This document shows, piece by piece, positions 1 to 34,456 of a stretch of DNA of 64,000 nt. Source of the DNA: Acidovorax sp. GBBC 1281 (GTDB lineage: Bacteria > Pseudomonadota > Gammaproteobacteria > Burkholderiales > Burkholderiaceae_C); the NCBI RefSeq assembly GCF_028473645.1, contig NZ_CP097269.1, forward strand, positions 1,692,001 to 1,756,000. Reading direction: 5' to 3'. The position numbers and the translations under genes were made by a program. How positions within the stretch are numbered: the first letter of the stretch is position 1; each line of letters starts with the position of its first letter. The notes beneath the pieces are model-generated. The model did no database searches. It saw nothing but the letters and a program-made list of their open reading frames with translations, and was not told where the DNA came from.

Positions 1-2514
1 GCCCTGGCGGCGGTCGGCGTAGCGCAGGGTTTCGGCGGTGGCCAGGCCCAGCAGGGCCTCGATGCGTTCGATCAGCGCATCGGGCGCGGGCCCGTGGCCG
101 GCGGCGCGCAGCAGCACGCCGTGGCGCTCGCGCTGCGGGCCGGCCAGCGGCGCGTTGTTGCTGAAGGGCACGCAGGTGGCGAAGGGCAGGGCGGGCATCA
201 GCGCGGCCAGCGCCTCGCGCACGGCCAGGGTGCCGTCCGCCGGCAGCCAGGCCATGGCCAGCAGCCGCCAGGGCAGCTCGGCCTTCAGGATCTTGACGGC
301 GGTGTGCTTGAGTTCGGGCTGCTTGGATGTGGGGCAGAAGGCCGGCGTGGTGAGCGCGTTCACGCCCGCCAGCGGCGTGCCGTCGGGCGACTGCCCGCTC
401 AGGTATTCGCTGCCCCAATGCATGGCGATGAAGGCCTGCGACAGGCCCACGTCGGTGCTGCCCTGCACCGGCACGACGATGGCGCCCCGCGCGCTGGCGA
501 CCTGCACCAGGTCGCCGTCGGCCAGTTGTCGGCGCGCCATGTCCTGCGGGTGCATCTGCACGCTGGGCTCGGCCACGTGGCCGAACAGGCGGCCCAGCGT
601 GCCGGTGCGGCTCATGCCGTGCCACTGGTCGCGCAGGCGGCCGGTGGTGAGGCTGAAGGGGTAGCGCGCCTGGCGCGGCTCGGCCACGGGCTGCCAGGCG
701 TGGGCGGCGAAGCGCGCGCGGCCGTCGGCGGTGGGGAAGATGCCGTCTTCGTACAGGCGCGCCTTGCCCAGCGGGCGGGGCGCGGCCGAAGGATCGGCAT
801 CGGCGTCCGCAGCGTCCGCAGCGCCTGCCGGGCACGGCCACTGCTGGGGGCCGTGGGCATCGAGCAAGGCCCATGAGAGGCCGGTGATGTCCAGGTCGCG
901 TCCGCGCGTGGTCTCGCGGTGCTCGTTCCACACGGCCTCGGCGCCTCGCTCGGCCTCGCCGTCCCCGGTGGCATACGGAAACAGCGTGGGCCGCCCCGGA
1001 CGCAGCCGCGCCTCCAGCCGACGGGCGAACTGCACGCCGATGGCCCAGTCGTGGCGCGTGTCGCCGGGCGCGGGCACGGCGGGGCGCACGCGGGAGATGC
1101 GGCGTTCGCTGTTGGTGACGGTGCCGGTCTTCTCGCCCCAGGTGGTGGCGGGCAGCAGCAGGTCGGCGTACTGCGACGTGGCGGTGGTGGCGAAGGCCTC
1201 CTGCACCACCACGAACTCGGCGCGCTCCAGCGCGCGGCGCACGGTGGCCTGGTCGGGCAGGCTTTGCGCCGGGTTGGTGCAGGCGATCCACAGCGCCCGG
1301 ATCTCGCCGTCGGCCGCGGCCTGGAACATCTCCACCGCGGTCTTGCCGGGCGTGCCCGGCACCTCGGGCACGCCCCACAGCGCGGCCACCTCGGCGCGGT
1401 GCCGGGGGTCGGCGAGGTCGCGGTGGGCCGACAGCAAATTGGCCAGGCCGCCCACCTCGCGCCCGCCCATGGCGTTGGGCTGCCCGGTGAGCGAGAACGG
1501 CCCCGCGCCCGGCCGGCCGATCTGGCCCGTGGCCAAGTGCAGGTTGACGAGGGCGGCGTTCTTGGCCGTGCCGCTGGCGCTCTGGTTCAGGCCCTGGCAG
1601 TAGAGGCTGAGCGTGGGCTGGCGCGCGGCACCGGCACCATCACCCACCCCGGCGAACCAGCGCGCGGCGGTGGCCAGATCCGCTTCGCTGATGCCGCACA
1701 CCTCGGCCACGCGGGCGGGCGTGCAGTCGCGCACCAGGGCCTTGAGCGCGTCGAAGCCGGTGGTGTGCGTGGCGATGTAGGCGCTGTCCACCCAGCCTTC
1801 CCACAGCATGAGGTGCAGCATGCCGTGGAACAGCATGACGTCGCTGCCCGGCTGGATGGGCAGGAACAGGTCGGCCAGCCCGGCGGTCTCGGTGCGGCGC
1901 GGGTCGGCCACGATGATCTTCATGCCCGGGTTGGCGGCCTTGGCGTCCTCGATGCGGCGAAACAGGATGGGGTGCGCCCACGCGGTGTTGCTGCCCACGA
2001 TGAAGAGGCACTGCGCGTGCTGCACGTCGTCGTAGCAGGTGGGCGGTGCGTCGGCGCCGAGCGTGGTTTTGTAGCCGGCCACGGCGCTGCTCATGCAAAG
2101 GCGCGAGTTGGTGTCGATGTTGTTGGTGCCGACCAGGCCCTTGGCGAGCTTGTTGAAGACGTAGTAGTCCTCGGTGAGGAGCTGGCCGGAGACGTAGAAG
2201 CCGACGGCGTCGGGGCCGTGTCGGGCGATGGTGTCGGCGAATTTTTGTGCGGCGGTGTCGAGGGCTGCTTCCCAGGCGATGGGCTGGGGTTTGTCGCCGC
2301 GCTGGGGGCGGTGCTGGGGGGTGAGCAGTCTTGTCTGGAGGGTGACGGGGCTGGCGGCGGTGAGGTGGAGGGTGGAGCCCTTGGTGCACAGGCGGCCGAA
2401 GTTGGCGGGGTGGGTGGGGTCGCCTCTCACGCCGGTGATCTGGGGGCCTGTGGATTCGATGATCACGCCGCAGCCTACGCCGCAGTAGGGGCAGGTGGAT
2501 TTGGTTTGGGTCAT
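1..2514 (-). CDS. nasA: Assimilatory nitrate reductase catalytic subunit (partial, 3' end outside window)
   Basis: Reduces nitrate to nitrite in the cytoplasm with Mo-bis-MGD and a [4Fe-4S] cluster. Reading the minus strand from the ATG at 2514 gives MTQTKSTCPYCGVGCGV, the N-terminal cluster motif CxxCxxxC, with the fourth cysteine in GRLCTKG about 30 residues later. Molybdopterin-oxidoreductase landmarks follow: FYVSGQLLTEDYYV, NIDTNSRLCMSSAVAGY, IVGSNTAWAHPILF, NAMGGREVGG and, near the left edge, the MopB C-terminal domain (GRLRDQWHGMSRTG). The frame stays open to base 1, so the C-terminus is missing. It lies downstream of nirB, the P-box protein and nirD on the same strand, separated from nirD by 747 bp holding a large inverted repeat, so co-transcription is likely but must pass through that structure. 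NasA is preferred over periplasmic NapA because no Tat signal precedes the cluster motif. Confidence 0.93.
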   Translation of the reverse strand, partial: MTQTKSTCPYCGVGCGVIIESTGPQITGVRGDPTHPANFGRLCTKGSTLHLTAASPVTLQTRLLTPQHRPQRGDKPQPIAWEAALDTAAQKFADTIARHGPDAVGFYVSGQLLTEDYYVFNKLAKGLVGTNNIDTNSRLCMSSAVAGYKTTLGADAPPTCYDDVQHAQCLFIVGSNTAWAHPILFRRIEDAKAANPGMKIIVADPRRTETAGLADLFLPIQPGSDVMLFHGMLHLMLWEGWVDSAYIATHTTGFDALKALVRDCTPARVAEVCGISEADLATAARWFAGVGDGAGAARQPTLSLYCQGLNQSASGTAKNAALVNLHLATGQIGRPGAGPFSLTGQPNAMGGREVGGLANLLSAHRDLADPRHRAEVAALWGVPEVPGTPGKTAVEMFQAAADGEIRALWIACTNPAQSLPDQATVRRALERAEFVVVQEAFATTATSQYADLLLPATTWGEKTGTVTNSERRISRVRPAVPAPGDTRHDWAIGVQFARRLEARLRPGRPTLFPYATGDGEAERGAEAVWNEHRETTRGRDLDITGLSWALLDAHGPQQWPCPAGAADAADADADPSAAPRPLGKARLYEDGIFPTADGRARFAAHAWQPVAEPRQARYPFSLTTGRLRDQWHGMSRTGTLGRLFGHVAEPSVQMHPQDMARRQLADGDLVQVASARGAIVVPVQGSTDVGLSQAFIAMHWGSEYLSGQSPDGTPLAGVNALTTPAFCPTSKQPELKHTAVKILKAELPWRLLAMAWLPADGTLAVREALAALMPALPFATCVPFSNNAPLAGPQRERHGVLLRAAGHGPAPDALIERIEALLGLATAETLRYADRRQG

Positions 2515-2601
2515 GGCGTGATTTTTGGTTAATTTATGGTTGTGTTGCTGCTTGTGTTGCTGGGCACGCGCTGATTTTTTGTTGGTTGCTGATTGGTTAC
2601 G

Positions 2602-3218
2602 TTCCGGGGCCGGGGTGTGCGCCCGGCGGCGCACTCACTTTCTTTTGCTTCGCCAAAAGAAAGTAAGCAAAGAAAAGGCGACCCTACTGTCCGTGTCCCC
2701 TGCGCTGCGCTCCGGGGCAACCTGCGGTGCTCGCGGCTGGCGGGGTCCGCGCAAACTCGCTCCACTGCGTTGCGCTCAAACAGCGCGCGGCCCTTTTTCC
2801 GCCAGCCGCTGCGCTCCTCGGCACGGCCAGAAGGGAACCCGACAGCCGAACTGCCCACACGGGCTATTGCTTCGCTCGGCCTCCGGTGCGCGAGCGCGTT
2901 GCGCCGCGCACGCTTGGCCGAGCGCAGCGATGGCCCGTCTGGCGGGTTCCCTTCTGGATGCGCCGAGGAGCGCAGGGCGCGGGGTGGGCAGGTGTGCCGT
3001 AGGACACACCTGCTTCGTGAACTGACTCGCCGTGGTTGTCCGAGCGCAGCGCGCAGCGCGAAGCGAGTTCCACGGCGCACCCCGCGCACGAGCACCGCAG
3101 GTTGCCCGGAGCGAAGCGCAGGGACGCAGCCAGCAGGGTCGCCTTTTCTTTGCTTACTTTCTTTTGGCGAAGCAAAAGAAAGTGAGTGCGCCGCCGGGCG
3201 CACACCCCGGCCCCGGAA
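2602..3218. repeat. 617-bp inverted-repeat element between nasA and nirD
   Basis: Bases 2602-2685 and 3135-3218 are perfect 84-bp inverted copies of each other. Each arm holds its own small palindrome, TTTCTTTTGCTTCGCCAAAAG followed by AAAG being its centre. The interior (2686-3134) also shows imperfect inverted matches: CAACCTGCGGTGCTCG near 2721 recurs in reverse complement near 3090, and the string CCAGAAGGGAACCCG near 2826 has a reversed partner near 2945. The interior is rich in GCGCTGCGCTC-like strings and gives only overlapping shadow reading frames, so I call no gene. Elements of this look are scattered between genes in Comamonadaceae as far as I recall. In an nirB-to-nasA transcript it would fold into a very long hairpin. 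Confidence 0.85.
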
Positions 3219-3261
3219 AGAAAAGCCACCACCAGCGCCAAAACAAGCCACACCCACAACC

Positions 3262-3654
3262 TCAAGCCCCCGAACCAGCAACTAAACGCCTGGTAGGCCC
3301 CGCCACAGGCCGCACCAACTCCACCGCATGCCCCGCCAACTCAACAGCATCCAAAAACACCTCCCCCCCCTCCACCTTCACCGCAAACTTCGGCGTACAC
3401 CCCTCGTCCGGCGCCGAAGCCTGCCCATCGCACAACCCGATCGTCCAGTTGTGCAGCGGACACGCCACGCTCGTCCCGAACACGATCCCCTGCGACAGGG
3501 GCCCCCCCTTGTGCGGACACCGGTCCAGCAGCGCGAACACCTCGTCCGCCCCGTTGCGGAACACGGCCACGTCCAGGCCCTGCGGCCGCGCCACGCGGCG
3601 CGAGCCCAGCACGGGAATGTCGTCCACACGGCAGATGTATTTCCAGTCGCTCAT
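3262..3654 (-). CDS. nirD: Nitrite reductase [NAD(P)H] small subunit, NirD
   Basis: The 130-residue partner of NirB in cytoplasmic NADH-dependent reduction of nitrite to ammonium. Start MSDWKYICRVDDIP at 3654 is chosen because GAGGT lies eight bases upstream; the longer frame to 3741 adds only a low-complexity serine/arginine leader. The fold is Rieske-like, with CPH at residues 46-48 and CPLH at 65-68, i.e. C-x-H-x16-C-x2-H. Many enterobacterial NirD proteins have lost these ligands, whereas here all four are kept, so a [2Fe-2S] cluster is plausible (inference). It sits 73 bp downstream of the P-box protein gene in the nirB operon. Confidence 0.93.
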   Translation of the reverse strand: MSDWKYICRVDDIPVLGSRRVARPQGLDVAVFRNGADEVFALLDRCPHKGGPLSQGIVFGTSVACPLHNWTIGLCDGQASAPDEGCTPKFAVKVEGGEVFLDAVELAGHAVELVRPVAGPTRRLVAGSGA

Positions 3655-3727: not shown

Positions 3728-4507
3728 TCACGCAGCGGCATACAGCCCGGTCACCCGGTCCATCACCACCAGCAGGTTCTCGCTGGCCACGAACACCTCG
3801 CCCAGCTGCTTGGCCGAGGTGCCCCCGCCCTGCAGCCGCTGCAGCGCCGCGTCGAAGAACACCCACTGTCCGTCGGCCAGCTGCAGCTCCTGCTGGATGC
3901 GCGGCGTGGCCTGCGGCGCGGTGCGCAGGGCGGCCATGGCGGTGGCGAATTCGCTGCGCGCCTTGGCGATCTCGGCCTGGGCCGCGGCCGCGTCCACGGG
4001 CAGCGCGGCGGCCAGGTAGCACTTGGCCATGCGCTGGGTCAGCATGCGCTGGCGACCGGCCAGGTTGACGAGGTGGCCGGCGGGCCTGGATTGCGCGGCC
4101 TCGTACTGCTGCGTGCCCTGCTGGGCCAGGGCCAGCACGCGGGCGTCGGCCTGCAGCACGGCGGGCGCGGCGTCGCGGGCCGGGGCGGTGCCGGTCAGCG
4201 TGGCCTTGTAGAGGCCCCAAGCCGCCTCCAGTTCGCCGTAGGTGGCGCGGATGGCGGGCGTGGGGGCATAGGCTTTCAGCGCGGCCAGCTGACGCTTGAA
4301 CAGCGCCAGGGATTTGTCCAGCACCTGCTGGGCGTTGGCGGTCTCCACGCCGTGCACCAGCGCGAGCCAGGCCTTGCCCATGCGCTGGCTCAGCATGCGC
4401 TGGCGGCCGGCCTGGTTGATGGCGTCGTTCAGGTCGGCCACCTCGGCGCGGGCGGCGAACGCGCAGCCTCCCAGGGCGGTGGCGAGCAGGAGTCGGCGGC
4501 GGCGCAT
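3728..4507 (-). CDS. Periplasmic protein with two PilJ/NarX-type P-box domains, embedded in the nir operon
   Basis: A 259-residue exported protein encoded between nirB (17 bp upstream) and nirD (73 bp downstream), start at 4507 after an AGGGGG-type ribosome site. The N-terminus is a signal peptide (MRRRRLLLATALGGCAFAARA, AxA cut near residue 21; LGGC at 12-15 could alternatively be a lipobox). It contains two copies of a PilJ N-terminal-like helical unit. The motif NQAGRQRMLSQRMGK is at residues 31-45 and NLAGRQRMLTQRMAK at 148-162, both resembling the P-box of NarX/NarQ that binds nitrate (AGSLRMQSYR), with both arginines kept (R37/R42 and R154/R159). There is no transmembrane helix after the signal, no HAMP, no kinase and no MCP signalling domain, so it is a soluble tandem sensor-like module without an output. 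A role as periplasmic nitrate/nitrite-binding protein is inference from motif plus operon. Confidence 0.8.
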   Translation of the reverse strand: MRRRRLLLATALGGCAFAARAEVADLNDAINQAGRQRMLSQRMGKAWLALVHGVETANAQQVLDKSLALFKRQLAALKAYAPTPAIRATYGELEAAWGLYKATLTGTAPARDAAPAVLQADARVLALAQQGTQQYEAAQSRPAGHLVNLAGRQRMLTQRMAKCYLAAALPVDAAAAQAEIAKARSEFATAMAALRTAPQATPRIQQELQLADGQWVFFDAALQRLQGGGTSAKQLGEVFVASENLLVVMDRVTGLYAAA

Positions 4508-4524: not shown

Positions 4525-6969
4525 TCACGGCGCGATGGCGGCGAACTGCCGCGTGTCCACGCGGGCTTCCTGGAAGTCGAACCACGGGTCGGGCTCGCCA
4601 TCCAGCGCGAACTGCAGCTGCTCCCACAGCGCGCGGCGGCCTTCGTGGTCTTCGAGGATGCGTTTTTTCACGTGATCGAGGCCCACGCGGTTCACGTAGT
4701 GCACCGTGCGCTCCAGGTACCAGCCTTCCTGGCGGTACAGCTCGCAAAAAGCCCCGGTGTACTCCAGCACCTCGGCCGCGGTCTTGAGCTTGGTGAAGAA
4801 GTGCGCCACCTCGGTCTTGATGCCGCCGTTGCCGGCGATGTACATCTCCCAGCCGCTGTCCACGCCGATGATGCCCACGTCCTTGATGCCGCTCTCGGCG
4901 CAGTTGCGCGGGCAGCCGCTCACGGCGAACTTGACCTTGTGCGGGGCGTACATGCGCCACATCGCGCGCTCCAGGTCCTTGCCCATCTGCGTGCTGTCCT
5001 GCGTGCCCATGCGGCACCACTCGCTGCCCACGCAGGTCTTGACCGTGCGCAGGGCCTTGGCGTAGGCGTGGCCGCTGGGCATGCCGATGTCCTTCCACAC
5101 GGCCTGCAGGTCTTCCTTCTTCACGCCCAGCAGGTCGATGCGCTGGCCGCCGGTCACCTTCACGGTGGGGATCTGGTATTTGTCCACCACGTCGGCGATG
5201 CGGCGCAGCTCGCTGGCCGTGGTCTCTCCGCCCCACATGCGCGGGATCACGCTGTACGTGCCGTCCTTCTGGATGTTGGCGTGGCTGCGCTCGTTGATGG
5301 CGCGGCTTTGCGGGTCGTCCTTGGCCTCCTTCGGCCAGGTGCTGATGAGGTAGTAGTTGACGGCCGGGCGGCAGGTGGCGCAGCCGTTGGGCGTCTTCCA
5401 TTCCAGGAAGGCGAACACGTCGCCGATGGACAGCAGCTTGTTGGCGCGGATCGCGTCGCGCACCGCCTGGTGGCCGTGGTCGGTGCAGCCGCACACGGCC
5501 TTGGTCTTGGGCGTGGCGGAGTAGTCGCCGCCGGCCGTGAACATGATGATCTGCTCCACCAGGCCCGTGCACGAGCCGCAGCTGGCGCTGGCCTTGGTGT
5601 GCTTTTTCACGTCGTCCAGCGTGAACAGGCCCTTGTCCTTGATGGCCTTGCAGATCGCGCCCTTGGTCACGCCGTTGCAGCCGCACACCTCGTCGGTGTC
5701 GGCCATGGCGGCGGCCTTGCTGTGGCCCTGGTGGCCGGCGTCGCCGATGTTGCTCTCGCCGAACATCAGCTTGTCGCGGATGTCGCCCACCGTGCGGCCG
5801 TCGCGCAGCAGCTTGAAGTACCAGCTGCCGTCCACCGTGTCGCCGTAGAGGCACGCGCCCACGAGCTTGTCGTCCTTGATGACGAGTTTTTTGTACACGC
5901 CGCCGAAGGGGTCGCTCATCACGATTTCCTCGGTGCCTTCGCCGCCCTGGAAGTCGCCCGCGCTGAACAGGTCGATGCCCGTCACCTTGAGCTTGGTGGA
6001 GGTGAGCGAGCCCTGGTAGCGCCCGATGCCGAACTCCGCCAGGTGGTTGGCCAGCACCTTGCCCTGCTCGAACAGCGGCGCCACCAGCCCGTAGGCGATG
6101 CCCCGGTGCGCGGCGCATTCGCCCACGGCGTAGATGCGCGCGTCGGTGGTGGTCTGCAGCGTGTCGCTCACCACGATGCCGCGGTGGACGTGCAGGCGCA
6201 TCTTTTCGGCCAGCTGCGTGTTCGGGCGGATGCCCACGGCCATCACCACCAGGTCGGCGGGCACCTCGGTGCCGTCCTTGAACCGCACGGCGGTGACGCG
6301 GCCGTCCTGGCCGCCCACCAGCTCCTGCGTCTGCGCCTTCATCAGGAACTGCATGCCGCGCTCGGCCAGGGACTTTTGCAGCATCTTGCCCGCCACGTCG
6401 TCCAGCTGGCGCTCCATGAGCCAGTCGCCCACGTGCACCACGCTCACCTGCATGCCGCGCTTCATGAGGCCGTTGGCGGCCTCCAGGCCCAGCAGCCCGC
6501 CGCCGATGACCACCGCATGCTTGTAGGTGGCGGCGGCGTCGATCATGGCCTGCGTGTCGGCGATGTCGCGGTAGGCCAGCACGCCTTGCAAGTCCTTGCC
6601 CGGAATCGGCAGGATGAAGGGGTTGGAGCCGGTGGCGAGGATGAGCCGGTCGTACTCGGCGCTGATGGCCTCGCCCGCCGCGTTGGTGGCATGCACCACG
6701 CGGCGCACGCGGTCCACCTCGTTCACGGTGAAGCCCGTGTGCAGGTGGATGCCGTGCTCCTCGTACCAGGACCAGTCGTTGAGGATGATCTCGTCGATGG
6801 TCTGCTCGCCCGCCAGCACGGGCGACAGCAGGATGCGGTTGTAGTTGGGGTGCGGCTCGGCGCCGAACACCGTGATGTCGTAGAGGTCCGGAGCGATCTT
6901 GAGCAGCTCTTCGAGCGTGCGCACCCCGGCCATGCCATTGCCCACCATCACCAGCCTGGATTTTTTCAT
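4525..6969 (-). CDS. nirB: Nitrite reductase [NAD(P)H] large subunit, NirB
   Basis: An 814-residue siroheme/FAD enzyme that reduces nitrite to ammonium with NAD(P)H, with NirD as partner. Start MKKSRLVMVGNGMAG at 6969 has a GGGGGT ribosome site and begins directly with the FAD GxGxxG motif. The second nucleotide fold is AVVIGGGLLGLEAANGL near residue 150. Next come BFD-like [2Fe-2S] motifs (VCGCNGVTKGAIC and CGSCTGLVEQI), a second related pair (VCGCTDHGHQ and CATCRPAVNYY), then the siroheme/[4Fe-4S] ligands CVGSEWC and SGCPRNC in the C-terminal half. Length fits the family. It is the first gene of the operon and lies behind a sigma-54 promoter and an ANTAR-type leader at 7053-7202. The frame is open to 7251 but the extension overlaps the leader RNA and is not protein-like. 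Confidence 0.96.
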   Translation of the reverse strand: MKKSRLVMVGNGMAGVRTLEELLKIAPDLYDITVFGAEPHPNYNRILLSPVLAGEQTIDEIILNDWSWYEEHGIHLHTGFTVNEVDRVRRVVHATNAAGEAISAEYDRLILATGSNPFILPIPGKDLQGVLAYRDIADTQAMIDAAATYKHAVVIGGGLLGLEAANGLMKRGMQVSVVHVGDWLMERQLDDVAGKMLQKSLAERGMQFLMKAQTQELVGGQDGRVTAVRFKDGTEVPADLVVMAVGIRPNTQLAEKMRLHVHRGIVVSDTLQTTTDARIYAVGECAAHRGIAYGLVAPLFEQGKVLANHLAEFGIGRYQGSLTSTKLKVTGIDLFSAGDFQGGEGTEEIVMSDPFGGVYKKLVIKDDKLVGACLYGDTVDGSWYFKLLRDGRTVGDIRDKLMFGESNIGDAGHQGHSKAAAMADTDEVCGCNGVTKGAICKAIKDKGLFTLDDVKKHTKASASCGSCTGLVEQIIMFTAGGDYSATPKTKAVCGCTDHGHQAVRDAIRANKLLSIGDVFAFLEWKTPNGCATCRPAVNYYLISTWPKEAKDDPQSRAINERSHANIQKDGTYSVIPRMWGGETTASELRRIADVVDKYQIPTVKVTGGQRIDLLGVKKEDLQAVWKDIGMPSGHAYAKALRTVKTCVGSEWCRMGTQDSTQMGKDLERAMWRMYAPHKVKFAVSGCPRNCAESGIKDVGIIGVDSGWEMYIAGNGGIKTEVAHFFTKLKTAAEVLEYTGAFCELYRQEGWYLERTVHYVNRVGLDHVKKRILEDHEGRRALWEQLQFALDGEPDPWFDFQEARVDTRQFAAIAP

Positions 6970-7052
6970 CGTGACCCCCAATGGGTGCCTGCCGCGGCGC
7001 TGCAAAAACGAATGAACAGCGCCTGCCGGCAGACGAAGCCGAAACCAAAAAA

Positions 7053-7114
7053 CAAAAAAGGCGTCCGCACAGGGCGCGGGCGGTTGAAGCCTGCACTGCC
7101 TGTGGGGACGCCTT
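7053..7114 (-). terminator. Leader terminator (attenuator) in front of nirB
   Basis: On the minus strand AAGGCGTCC (7114-7106) pairs with GGACGCCTT (7066-7058), extended inward by CACAGG/CCTGTG, and is followed by six T residues. It lies between the predicted transcript start and nirB and must be read through for expression. The same nine-base arms recur in the nrtA leader. Confidence 0.85.
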
Positions 7115-7131
7115 CGTCCTGACCGCCCCGT

Positions 7132-7175
7132 TTCCGCCATTGGAAGGGGCCAGCCATGTGACCGGCATTGGTCAC
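7132..7175 (-). promoter_or_regulatory. Tandem hexaloop hairpins, probable NasT (ANTAR) target in the nirB leader
   Basis: Transcribed from the minus strand. The first hairpin is GTGACC-AATGCC-GGTCAC (7175-7158), the second TTCC-AATGGC-GGAA (7145-7132), its stem extended by CCCC/GGGG with a small bulge. Both loops have six bases with A at position 1 and G at position 4, the signature of ANTAR-bound two-hairpin RNAs. The second is 17 bases ahead of the leader terminator stem, suiting an antitermination switch. Confidence 0.82.
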
Positions 7176-7186
7176 GGGGACGCTGT

Positions 7187-7202
7187 TGCAATGCGCGTGC
7201 CA
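7187..7202 (-). promoter_or_regulatory. Sigma-54 promoter of the nir operon
   Basis: Minus strand reads TGGCACGCGCATTGCA, a full match to the -24/-12 consensus TGGCAC-N5-TTGCA. Counting 12 bases from the -12 element puts the transcript start near 7176, directly at the first hexaloop hairpin. Nitrogen (NtrC) control is inferred; I see only poor NtrC-like half sites upstream (around 7335-7352). Confidence 0.85.
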
Positions 7203-7256
7203 GGTCTGGGTGGGATCGGAGGGGTTGAGGGGAAATCGGGCCCTGGCGCATATTCC

Positions 7257-32164: not shown

Positions 32165-33409
32165 TCAGGCCTTGATCTTGAAGCTGTCGGCGTACTTGGC
32201 CGGGTCCTTGCCGTCCCAGACGACGCCGTCCATCAATTTGCTGGAACGCATGTCGCTCTTGGGCAGGGGCGCCTTGGCGGCGGTGGCGGCCTGCTTGTAC
32301 AGCTCGGTGCGGTTGATCGACTTGGCGACGGCCAGGTAGTCCGGGTGGTCCTTGAGCAGGCCCCAGCGCTTGTGCTGCGTGAGGAACCACATGCCGTCGG
32401 ACAGGTAGGGGAAGTTCACCGCGCCGTCGTTGTAGAACTTCATGTAGTTGGGGTCGTCCCAGGTCTTGCCCAGGCCGTTCTGGTAGCGGCCCAGGATGCG
32501 CTGGTTGATGGCGTCCACGCTGGTGTTCACGTAGGCCTTGCCGGCGATGGTTTCGGCCATCTTGTTCTTGTTGGCGAGGCCCTCGTCGATCCAGCGGCCG
32601 GCCTCCAGGATGGCGGCCGTCACGGCGCGCGCGGTGTTGGGGTACTTCTGCACGAACTCCGACGTGGTGCCCAGCACCTTCTCGGGGTGGTCCTTCCAGA
32701 TGTCCTGCGTGGTGGTGGCGGTGATGCCGATGCCGTCCATGATGGCGCGGTGGTTCCAGGGCTCGCCCACGCAGAAGCCGTCCATGTTGCCCACGCGCAT
32801 GTTGGCCACCATCTGCGGCGGCGGCACGGTGATGACCTTGGCCCCCTTGAGCGGGTCGATGCCGTTGGCGGCCAGCCAGTAGTACAGCCACATGGCGTGC
32901 GTGCCGGTGGGGAAGGTCTGCGCGAAGGTGTATTCGCGCTTTTCCTTGGCCATGAGCTGGGCCAGGCCCGCGCCGTCCACCGCGCCGGCATCGGCGAGCT
33001 TCTTGCTCAGCGTGATGGCCTGGCCGTTGTTGTTCAGGGTCATGAGCACGGCCATGTCCTTCTTGGGGCCGCCGACACCTAAGTGCACGCCGTACACCAG
33101 GCCGTACAGCACGTGGGCGAAGTCCAGCTCGCCGTTGGCCAGCTTGTCGCGCACGCCGGCCCAGCTCGCTTCCTTGGAAGGCACGATCTTCACACCGTAC
33201 TTCTGGTCGATGCCCAGCACCGAGGCCATCACCACGCTGGCGCAGTCGGTGAGGGGGATGAAGCCGATCTTGACTTCCTTCTTTTCCGGCGCGTCGGAGC
33301 CGGCTGCATGCACTATGGAGCGCAGCGCGGGGCTCACGCCGACGGCCCCCACGGCGGCGGCCTGCAGCACGGTGCGGCGGTGGAGACTGGTTTTGGACAG
33401 GTCGGTCAT
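32165..33409 (-). CDS. nrtA: Nitrate ABC transporter substrate-binding protein
   Basis: 414 residues; binds nitrate in the periplasm. The N-terminus SLHRRTVLQAAAVGAVG looks like a twin-arginine signal. The mature part shows KIGFIPLTDCASVVMAS, FAHVLYGLVYGVHLG, NNNGQAITLSK, PTGTHAMWLYYWLAANGIDP and VGNMDGFCVGEPWNHRAI, all typical of NrtA/CmpA. ATG 33409 is chosen for the AAGGG nine bases upstream; ATG 33418 is also in frame. First gene after the sigma-54/ANTAR leader. Confidence 0.94.
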   Translation of the reverse strand: MTDLSKTSLHRRTVLQAAAVGAVGVSPALRSIVHAAGSDAPEKKEVKIGFIPLTDCASVVMASVLGIDQKYGVKIVPSKEASWAGVRDKLANGELDFAHVLYGLVYGVHLGVGGPKKDMAVLMTLNNNGQAITLSKKLADAGAVDGAGLAQLMAKEKREYTFAQTFPTGTHAMWLYYWLAANGIDPLKGAKVITVPPPQMVANMRVGNMDGFCVGEPWNHRAIMDGIGITATTTQDIWKDHPEKVLGTTSEFVQKYPNTARAVTAAILEAGRWIDEGLANKNKMAETIAGKAYVNTSVDAINQRILGRYQNGLGKTWDDPNYMKFYNDGAVNFPYLSDGMWFLTQHKRWGLLKDHPDYLAVAKSINRTELYKQAATAAKAPLPKSDMRSSKLMDGVVWDGKDPAKYADSFKIKA

Positions 33410-33592: not shown

Positions 33593-33608
33593 TGCAAGCC
33601 TTGTGCCA
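33593..33608 (-). promoter_or_regulatory. Sigma-54 promoter of the nrt operon
   Basis: Minus strand TGGCACAAGGCTTGCA matches TGGCAC-N5-TTGCA completely. The predicted start near 33582 is three bases before the first hexaloop hairpin, the same geometry as at nirB. Confidence 0.85.
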
Positions 33609-33629
33609 GAGCGGACCATACGGGATGTT

Positions 33630-33829: not shown

Positions 33830-34456
33830 TCAGCCCAGCAGGTCCGCCACGTCCAGCATGCGCTGGGCCACCTCGACCAGCTTCATGCCCTTGTCCATCG
33901 CGCTCTTGCGCAGCTTGTCGTAGGCGGCCTGTTCGGTCAGGCCCTGGCGCTGCATCAGCAGGCCCTTGGCGCGGTCGATGGTCTTGCGGTCCTTCAGCTC
34001 GCTGCGCGCATCGGCCAGTTCGGCGCGCAGGGCCTGCTCGTGCTGGAAGCGCGCCATCGCCACGTCCAGGATGGGGCGGATGCGCTGGGGCGACAGCCCG
34101 GCCACGATGTAGGCCGACACGCCCGCGGCCACCGCCTGCCGCACGTGGGAGGGGTCGTCGTCGTTGGTGAACATCACGATGGCGCGGGGCGCATCGCGGG
34201 TGGCCATTACCACGTGCTCCAGCGCATCGCGGGCGTCGCTTTCGGCGTCCACGATCACCAGGTCGGGCTGCAGCTGCGCGAGCCGCTCGCTCAGGAACAC
34301 GTCGGCCGGCAGCGTGGCCACCAGGTTGAAGTTGTTTTCCAGCAGGCCGATGCGCAGCGCCCGCGAGCGCTCGGCCTGCAGCTGGGCGTGCTCGTCGTCC
34401 TCGGCACCCACCGCCAGGTCGGGGGCCACCACCACGATGCGCAGAGAGTCGGTCAT
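33830..34456 (-). CDS. nasT: ANTAR-domain antiterminator, NasT-like
   Basis: 208 residues. The N-terminal receiver-like domain (LRIVVVAP, LQPDLVIVDAESDARDALEHV, PRAIVMFTNDDDPSHVRQAV) is followed by a coiled linker and a C-terminal ANTAR domain: ELKDRKTIDRAKGLLMQRQGL, then TEQAAYDKLRKSAMDKGMKLV. The family binds two-hairpin leader RNA and prevents termination. The receiver has an insert of about 20 residues after the first strand (AEDDEHAQLQAERSRALR) compared with usual NasT. It sits 420 bp upstream of nrtA on the same strand. The usual nitrate-sensing partner NasS is not next to it. Confidence 0.92.
   Translation of the reverse strand: MTDSLRIVVVAPDLAVGAEDDEHAQLQAERSRALRIGLLENNFNLVATLPADVFLSERLAQLQPDLVIVDAESDARDALEHVVMATRDAPRAIVMFTNDDDPSHVRQAVAAGVSAYIVAGLSPQRIRPILDVAMARFQHEQALRAELADARSELKDRKTIDRAKGLLMQRQGLTEQAAYDKLRKSAMDKGMKLVEVAQRMLDVADLLG

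Follow-up and report, generated by a model that had tools for sequence, protein, structure and literature searches.

A tandem PilJ protein encoded between nirB and nirD in Acidovorax sp. GBBC 1281, a candidate exported nitrate receptor

The window analysed here is a stretch of 64,000 nucleotides from the genome of Acidovorax sp. GBBC 1281. It contains a nitrite reductase operon in which a gene for a stand-alone tandem PilJ protein (hereafter the solo protein) lies between nirB and nirD. On balance, it is probable that this gene encodes an exported, soluble nitrate receptor that has no output domain and is made together with the nitrate-assimilation enzymes. The gene, the operon, the promoter and leader motifs, an export-type N-terminus, two nitrate-binding-type motifs (N-boxes) and the predicted fold are the computed part of this reading. 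The domain family and the ligand motif of the solo protein are known, and the packaging is new. A preliminary description, made from the letters alone, had located the gene correctly at 3728..4507, on what is the minus strand, and had noted no described function for such a form. Likewise, no account of an exported, output-less tandem PilJ protein was found in the open-licence literature of PubMed Central (PMC).

N-boxes and predicted fold

PF13675 (PilJ) was matched in two stretches of the protein, with an E value of 1.9e-26 and 92.8 bits against a Pfam cut-off of 26.6, which places the protein in this family; aligned over 77 aa, its two halves share 40% identity. Pfam found no domain other than PilJ above its cut-off in the 259 residues: neither the kinase domain that stands behind the membrane-spanning sensor of NarX/NarQ, nor the methyl-accepting signalling domain of PilJ- or McpN-type chemoreceptors. 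PF08376 (NIT) gave no match at E up to 1. The two PilJ-type units and the lack of kinase or chemotaxis output, as first described, are thus borne out.

The motifs INQAGRQRMLSQRM and VNLAGRQRMLTQRM (residues 30-41 and 147-158) are both exact to the N-box of McpN, [IVL]-[ND]-x-A-G-x-Q-R-M-L-[ST]-Q. The preliminary description had numbered the arginines correctly (R37/R42 and R154/R159) but had likened the motif to the P-box of NarX/NarQ, whereas the pattern that fits exactly is that of McpN. In PMC6381276, the N-box is proposed as a marker of nitrate-binding PilJ domains; R61 of McpN, which lies within it, binds nitrate, and the R61A protein does not recognise nitrate. The PilJ domain of McpN, the closest characterised one, is given there as binding nitrate at 47 µM, and the PilJ receptor of Pseudomonas aeruginosa, a natural tandem, as having no N-box and no nitrate binding. 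Across 65 nas-linked rows, the window's and those of 64 relatives, G34, R37, R42, G151 and R154 do not vary, and mean conservation is 95% in the 24 N-box columns, against 65% in the other columns of the mature part, so the match is more than chance. Both N-boxes are exact in 54 of these rows and one is exact in 11. The solo protein is quite likely to bind nitrate.

The AlphaFold2 model (predicted local distance difference test, pLDDT, 92; predicted template modelling score, pTM, 0.87) folds the mature part into two four-helix bundles. Among whole-chain folds, the NasR NIT domain (PDB 4AKK) comes nearest, superposed over 233 residues at 9% identity, and the model shares its arrangement of two bundles in a single chain. 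Since the whole chain comes nearest to NasR, the two arginines would probably meet within one chain and not across a homodimer; on this model, an intramolecular binding site appears likely. The corresponding helix-1 arginine of NasR is presumably R49. The PilJ receptor structures 7ZJR and 8WDF aligned to only one bundle of the model (117 residues), and the best sequence match in the PDB was McpN (6GCV).

A search of the genome with PF13675 (E up to 0.01), for which control genomes including E. coli gave matches, returned only the solo protein and a PilJ-type receptor. Of these two, the receptor lacks an N-box and only the solo protein has one, and a NarX/NarQ partner in this genome is unsupported. 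Outside the window, an open frame of 652 aa in the same genome contains a NIT-domain match (G000:C1:3837515-3838204). Given this receptor and this NIT-domain protein, it could be proposed that the solo protein presents nitrate to a membrane chemoreceptor or pilus receptor, as TorT does to TorS. The TorS-TorT and XylFII-LytS complexes are indeed among the fold comparison rows, but they match single helical bundles, at Z 9.1 to 11.6, which may be ordinary; moreover, no chemotaxis genes were seen beside the operon in the loci whose genes were listed. We regard such a role as very unlikely.

Export, operon and leader RNA

The signal peptide, recognised by eye (Table 1), supports the secreted protein first described, and the solo protein is probably exported by the twin-arginine translocation (Tat) route. 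In a predictor-free motif count on script-chosen starts, 72 of 76 presumed N-termini of relatives have a pair of arginines (RR) among their first 20 residues, and 57 of 76 have RR together with a hydrophobic, Tat-like pattern. This count covers 76 of 78 rows, two having no recognised domain start, and takes one genome twice (L032 and L074), which is also double in the row set used for the receptor N-box check. By eye, several solos from elsewhere in the class begin with an ordinary hydrophobic sequence that resembles a signal peptide. On the Kyte-Doolittle scale, no 19-residue stretch of the mature part has a mean above 1.14, which is low for a membrane helix under the usual rule.

The gene order is nirB, 17 bp, solo, 73 bp, nirD, and then a nasA-type gene. 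The product of the latter scored 479.5 bits with formate dehydrogenase alpha, 448.2 with NasA and 427.9 with NasC in NCBIfam, all below cut-offs; the genes are called nasA, nasT and nrtA on the strength of their Pfam domains and place. Upstream of nirB stand an exact sigma-54-type site and a leader whose fold (z -4.8) is better than all 200 shuffles. With up to 2 mismatches, the sigma-54-type pattern occurs 8 times, no more often than expected by chance (9.25), so that weight can be given only to the exact match and to its position. A second site, with one mismatch, precedes nrtA and its sister leader, which also folds better than all shuffles (z -6.3) and can be aligned with that of nirB. In both leaders a first hairpin with loop AAUGGC can form, as can a second, with loop GAAGGC in nirB and AAAGGC in nrtA, which overlaps the terminator stem before the U run. 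Apart from the terminator stems, the first nirB hairpin is the only one present in the minimum-energy folds, and the others are alternatives drawn by eye. The ANTAR leader element has been described (PMC3369931) as a pair of hexanucleotide loops whose first position is A and whose fourth is G, and three of the four loops agree with it at both positions, the second nirB loop having G at position 1. Rfam gave no match at gathering scores in window positions 1-35000, so the assignment rests on the folds, the alignment and PMC3369931. The sigma-54 and NasT-type leader of the preliminary description was thus found, together with its counterpart before nrtA.

No ANTAR gene other than the nasT-type one was found in the genome, nor was a clear NasS: a search with NrtA returned NrtA itself and one weak match (28%, E 1.8e-4). 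Between nirB and nrtABC lie about 23 kb (window 7250-30360) with transposase-like and efflux-like genes, by eye; in some relatives nasT, nrtABC, nirB, solo, nirD and nasA stand all together.

The resemblance of promoter and leader to those of nrtA, the presence of nrtABC in the same cluster in many relatives and the export-type N-terminus would also suit a periplasmic buffer or feeder, which binds nitrate and passes it to NrtABC, or holds it near the importer, with no signalling. That role, however, is already filled by NrtA; in many operons with a solo, nrtABC was not seen within the stretch examined, and the affinity of the McpN domain (PMC6381276) is weak for a feeder. We consider this explanation distinctly unlikely.

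Table 1. Positions of the solo gene, its motifs and associated features in the window
Feature	Position	Strand	Remarks
Tandem PilJ stand-alone gene (P0001)	4507..3728	minus	259 aa
Twin-arginine-like signal peptide MRRRRLLLATALGGCAFAARA	4445..4507	minus	residues 1-21, by eye
N-box 1 INQAGRQRMLSQ	4385..4420	minus	residues 30-41, predicted helix 1 (26-52), G34-x-x-R37; exact to the N-box pattern in PMC6381276
N-box 2 VNLAGRQRMLTQ	4034..4069	minus	residues 147-158, predicted helix 5 (142-167), G151-x-x-R154; exact to the same pattern
nirB, nitrite reductase large subunit	4525..6969	minus	TIGR02374, E 7e-276, above cut-off; script-called start
nirD, nitrite reductase small subunit (Rieske)	3262..3654	minus	TIGR02378, E 2.2e-23, above cut-off
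nasA-type molybdopterin reductase	1..2514, runs off window	minus	molybdopterin oxidoreductase domains (Pfam); named from operon
Sigma-54-type -24/-12 site before nirB CTGGCACGCGCATTGCA	7187..7203	minus	exact match
ANTAR-type leader of nirB	7050..7145	minus	hairpin UUCC-AAUGGC-GGAA, alternative GGAC-GAAGGC-GUCC, terminator and U run
Second sigma-54-type site, before nrtA, then sister leader	33593..33609	minus	one mismatch
nrtA-type nitrate-binding protein, ATP-binding cassette (ABC) importer	32165..33409	minus	PF13379, E 1e-101; named by domain and place; no NCBIfam match
nasT-type gene (REC-like and ANTAR)	33830..34456	minus	named by domains and place; no NCBIfam match

Distribution, fusions and paralogs

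At least 157 of 397 genomes of the family have some solo match at E 1e-6, and 251 have nirD at E 1e-20. With a threshold of E 6e-42 or better, one locus per genome and the window's own excluded, 67 close ortholog loci were obtained; weaker matches were sampled in part (33 loci, E 2.6e-34 or weaker). Genes were taken as near within 1000 bp (nirB, nirD) or 1600 bp (nasA) by tblastn with the window's proteins, some of the nasA matches being only 35-37% identical. By this measure nirB, nirD and a nasA-type gene all lie near the solo at 43 of the 67 loci (42 of them complete, the other at a contig edge), while ten loci have the N-terminal half of NirB with a nasA-type gene, two have the nasA-type gene only and 12 have none. 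The link to nir genes that had been suggested from the one operon therefore holds in part: in a large clade (77 rows in the tree, support 100) the tie to nitrate genes is real, but it tracks nasA-type operons and not nirBD as such. The solo thus stands beside nirD in at least 44 of the 251 nirD genomes (about 44, the window's included, at the E 6e-42 threshold). A role specific to NirBD is weakened by the ten loci without nirD near and the two with nasA-type only.

The NirB-like part (residues 1 to about 407), the solo and the nasA-type gene were seen together at L075, L077, L082, L098, L101, L103, L104, L106, L108 and L131, of which one was checked further; the NirB-like half is possibly an electron-transfer subunit. 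In L032 (7001-8641; same genome as L074), two tandem solo copies lie between nirB and nirD. At 20 solo-less loci, taken from the top of the nirD search, nirB and nirD are 24-265 bp apart, and four of these belong to congeners (L197-L200).

A gene for a REC-ANTAR-PilJ-PilJ fusion lies beside the nas operon in some relatives (L071, L081, L087, L088, L094, L100, L110, L120, L121, L131, L167-L169), two having been confirmed by Pfam. The fusions, found at 10 of the 55 nas loci with a solo and at 2 of the 20 without, form one clade with support of 99 in the first tree and 100/100 in a second, which kept 65 of 142 rows (8 dropped outright as long or doubtful, the remainder thinned). None of 16 fusions has both N-boxes exact and six have one, while 15 hold AGQLRM or SGQLRM. 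They suggest that such a PilJ tandem can act as a cis sensor for nas antitermination, which supports a nitrate role for the solo protein. Of the 55 nas-linked loci, 4 had NasT within reach, 5 an ANTAR-only regulator of NIT-ANTAR type, 10 the PilJ fusion, 2 another regulator and 34 none; the figures for the 20 solo-less loci were 2, 3, 2, 1 (L202, a NIT-ANTAR protein) and 12. Dependence of the solo on one type of regulator was not seen across these two sets.

The fusions, together with the single ANTAR gene and the missing NasS of this genome, would fit a further proposal, namely that a folded precursor before Tat export, or a non-exported form, controls NasT as a sensor arm in place of NasS; Tat substrates do fold before export. 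Yet RR signals occur in 72 of 76 relatives, solos also stand beside fusions (10 of 55 loci) and NIT-ANTAR regulators (5 of 55), which have sensors of their own, and the same type of NasT is found at 2 of the 20 solo-less loci. This proposal is unlikely too, and slightly more so than a feeder.

Tandem PilJ paralogs near moaA, mostly also near mobA, occur at L137, L139-L141, L145, L149, L152, L164 and L166; their first N-box is decayed (TARFRALSQR or similar) and the second often kept. Both N-boxes are exact in 1 of 33 moaA-type and other paralogs. These decayed paralogs, and the optional, patchy presence of the gene, are what would be expected of a hitch-hiking remnant, that is, a sensor domain that lost its output and has no specific role. 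However, the N-box residues are invariant in orthologs down to about 42% identity, the RR signal is conserved and the place in the operon is repeated, and a remnant is the least probable of the explanations weighed.

At class level, 30 rows were sampled, 20 regions taken and 16 placed in the tree, which excludes L181, L184, L192 and L193. A general nitrate link of the wider family is weak, as only L182 and L183 of these 16 rows from outside the family lie directly beside nas or nar genes. At L182, which belongs to a different family of the class, a solo of 35% identity is accompanied by genes like nasT, nrtB and nrtC, two like nrtA, and a nasA-like gene for which family models score below cut-offs, formate dehydrogenase alpha being best. 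At L183, a NarX/NarQ-type kinase (below cut-off) and NarL (above cut-off) are followed by a porin-like gene, by eye, and the solo. A nasA-like match (35%) lies about 4 kb off at L189 and a partial one (31%) about 5 kb off at L188; the neighbours of L187, L189 and L190 were checked only by tblastn with the window's proteins. Other class-level copies adjoin proC, gspF and moaA, and also ubiA- and mobA-like genes, by eye.

Comparison with known nitrate sensors

In the receptor reading that we favour, the protein would be exported to the periplasm, probably in a Tat-dependent way, with two McpN-like PilJ bundles lying next to each other within a single chain, in the manner of the NasR NIT domain. 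A single nitrate, or possibly nitrite, would be bound between helices 1 and 5 by G34-x-x-R37 of the one and G151-x-x-R154 of the other. Expression alongside the assimilation enzymes would be achieved via sigma-54 and NasT-type antitermination, and the change between bound and unbound forms may pass the nitrate state of the periplasm to a membrane partner, for example the NrtABC importer or a receptor. Signalling to a partner is the tentative part of this scheme, and we lean slightly against it.

Several results weigh against the receptor reading. No partner protein was identified, and most nirD-bearing genomes sampled have no solo beside nirD. Both N-boxes are exact in 7 of 12 other close copies away from nas genes (A_other) and in 7 of 16 class-level solos, so the N-boxes are no proof of a nas role. 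Identity to NasR is only 9%; profile comparison with three NIT-ANTAR proteins by hhalign found nothing (probability 0.3), and Foldseek gave no match below E 0.001, with PilJ 7zjr first (E 0.029) and NasR not among the best 50. Finally, profile A2 scores the non-binding PilJ receptor (7zjr, E 7.9e-5) close to McpN.

Like the NasR NIT domain of Klebsiella oxytoca, the solo protein is a single chain modelled as two four-helix bundles, with arginines on both helix 1 and helix 5, in the context of nitrate assimilation. It differs in that it carries Pfam PilJ and not NIT, G-x-x-R on both sides and an export-type N-terminus, and has no ANTAR domain. With McpN of P. aeruginosa it has the exact N-box in common, in both halves, whereas the periplasmic part of McpN is a single PilJ domain of a membrane chemoreceptor, with nitrate bound across a homodimer (PMC6381276). 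NarX and NarQ are single sensor units in a membrane kinase dimer, none of which was found in the genome with PF13675. The PilJ receptor also has tandem PilJ domains in its periplasmic part (7ZJR, 8WDF), but both that of P. aeruginosa and the PilJ-type receptor of this genome are without N-box. NasS-NasT resembles the present system in the nitrate-responsive control of a nas operon by an ANTAR protein and leader RNA; NasS, described as a soluble protein of the cytoplasm that binds nitrate and resembles periplasmic proteins that do so (PMC3795266), is the part for which this genome has no clear homolog.

As a more speculative extension, which we think rather unlikely, there may be a class of exported free-standing nitrate receptors, in which two McpN-type PilJ domains make up a NIT fold like that of NasR and which supply periplasmic nitrate input where NarX/NarQ or NasS are absent, the homologous tandem joined to REC-ANTAR being a different nas antiterminator. 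The predicted fold links two sensor families described separately, PilJ and NIT; if the extension is true, these may be one family, NIT being an old PilJ tandem. An exported, output-less module of this kind could also explain how NasT-type operons are tuned in bacteria without NasS and NarX/NarQ. The solo protein is, in addition, a small soluble candidate for a nitrate biosensor.

An imperfect palindrome of about 620 bp, with 103-nt arms that are 94% complementary, occupies the gap between nirD and the nasA-type gene (window 2597-3223), and a second copy, 96% identical, lies at G000:C1:4059818-4060434.
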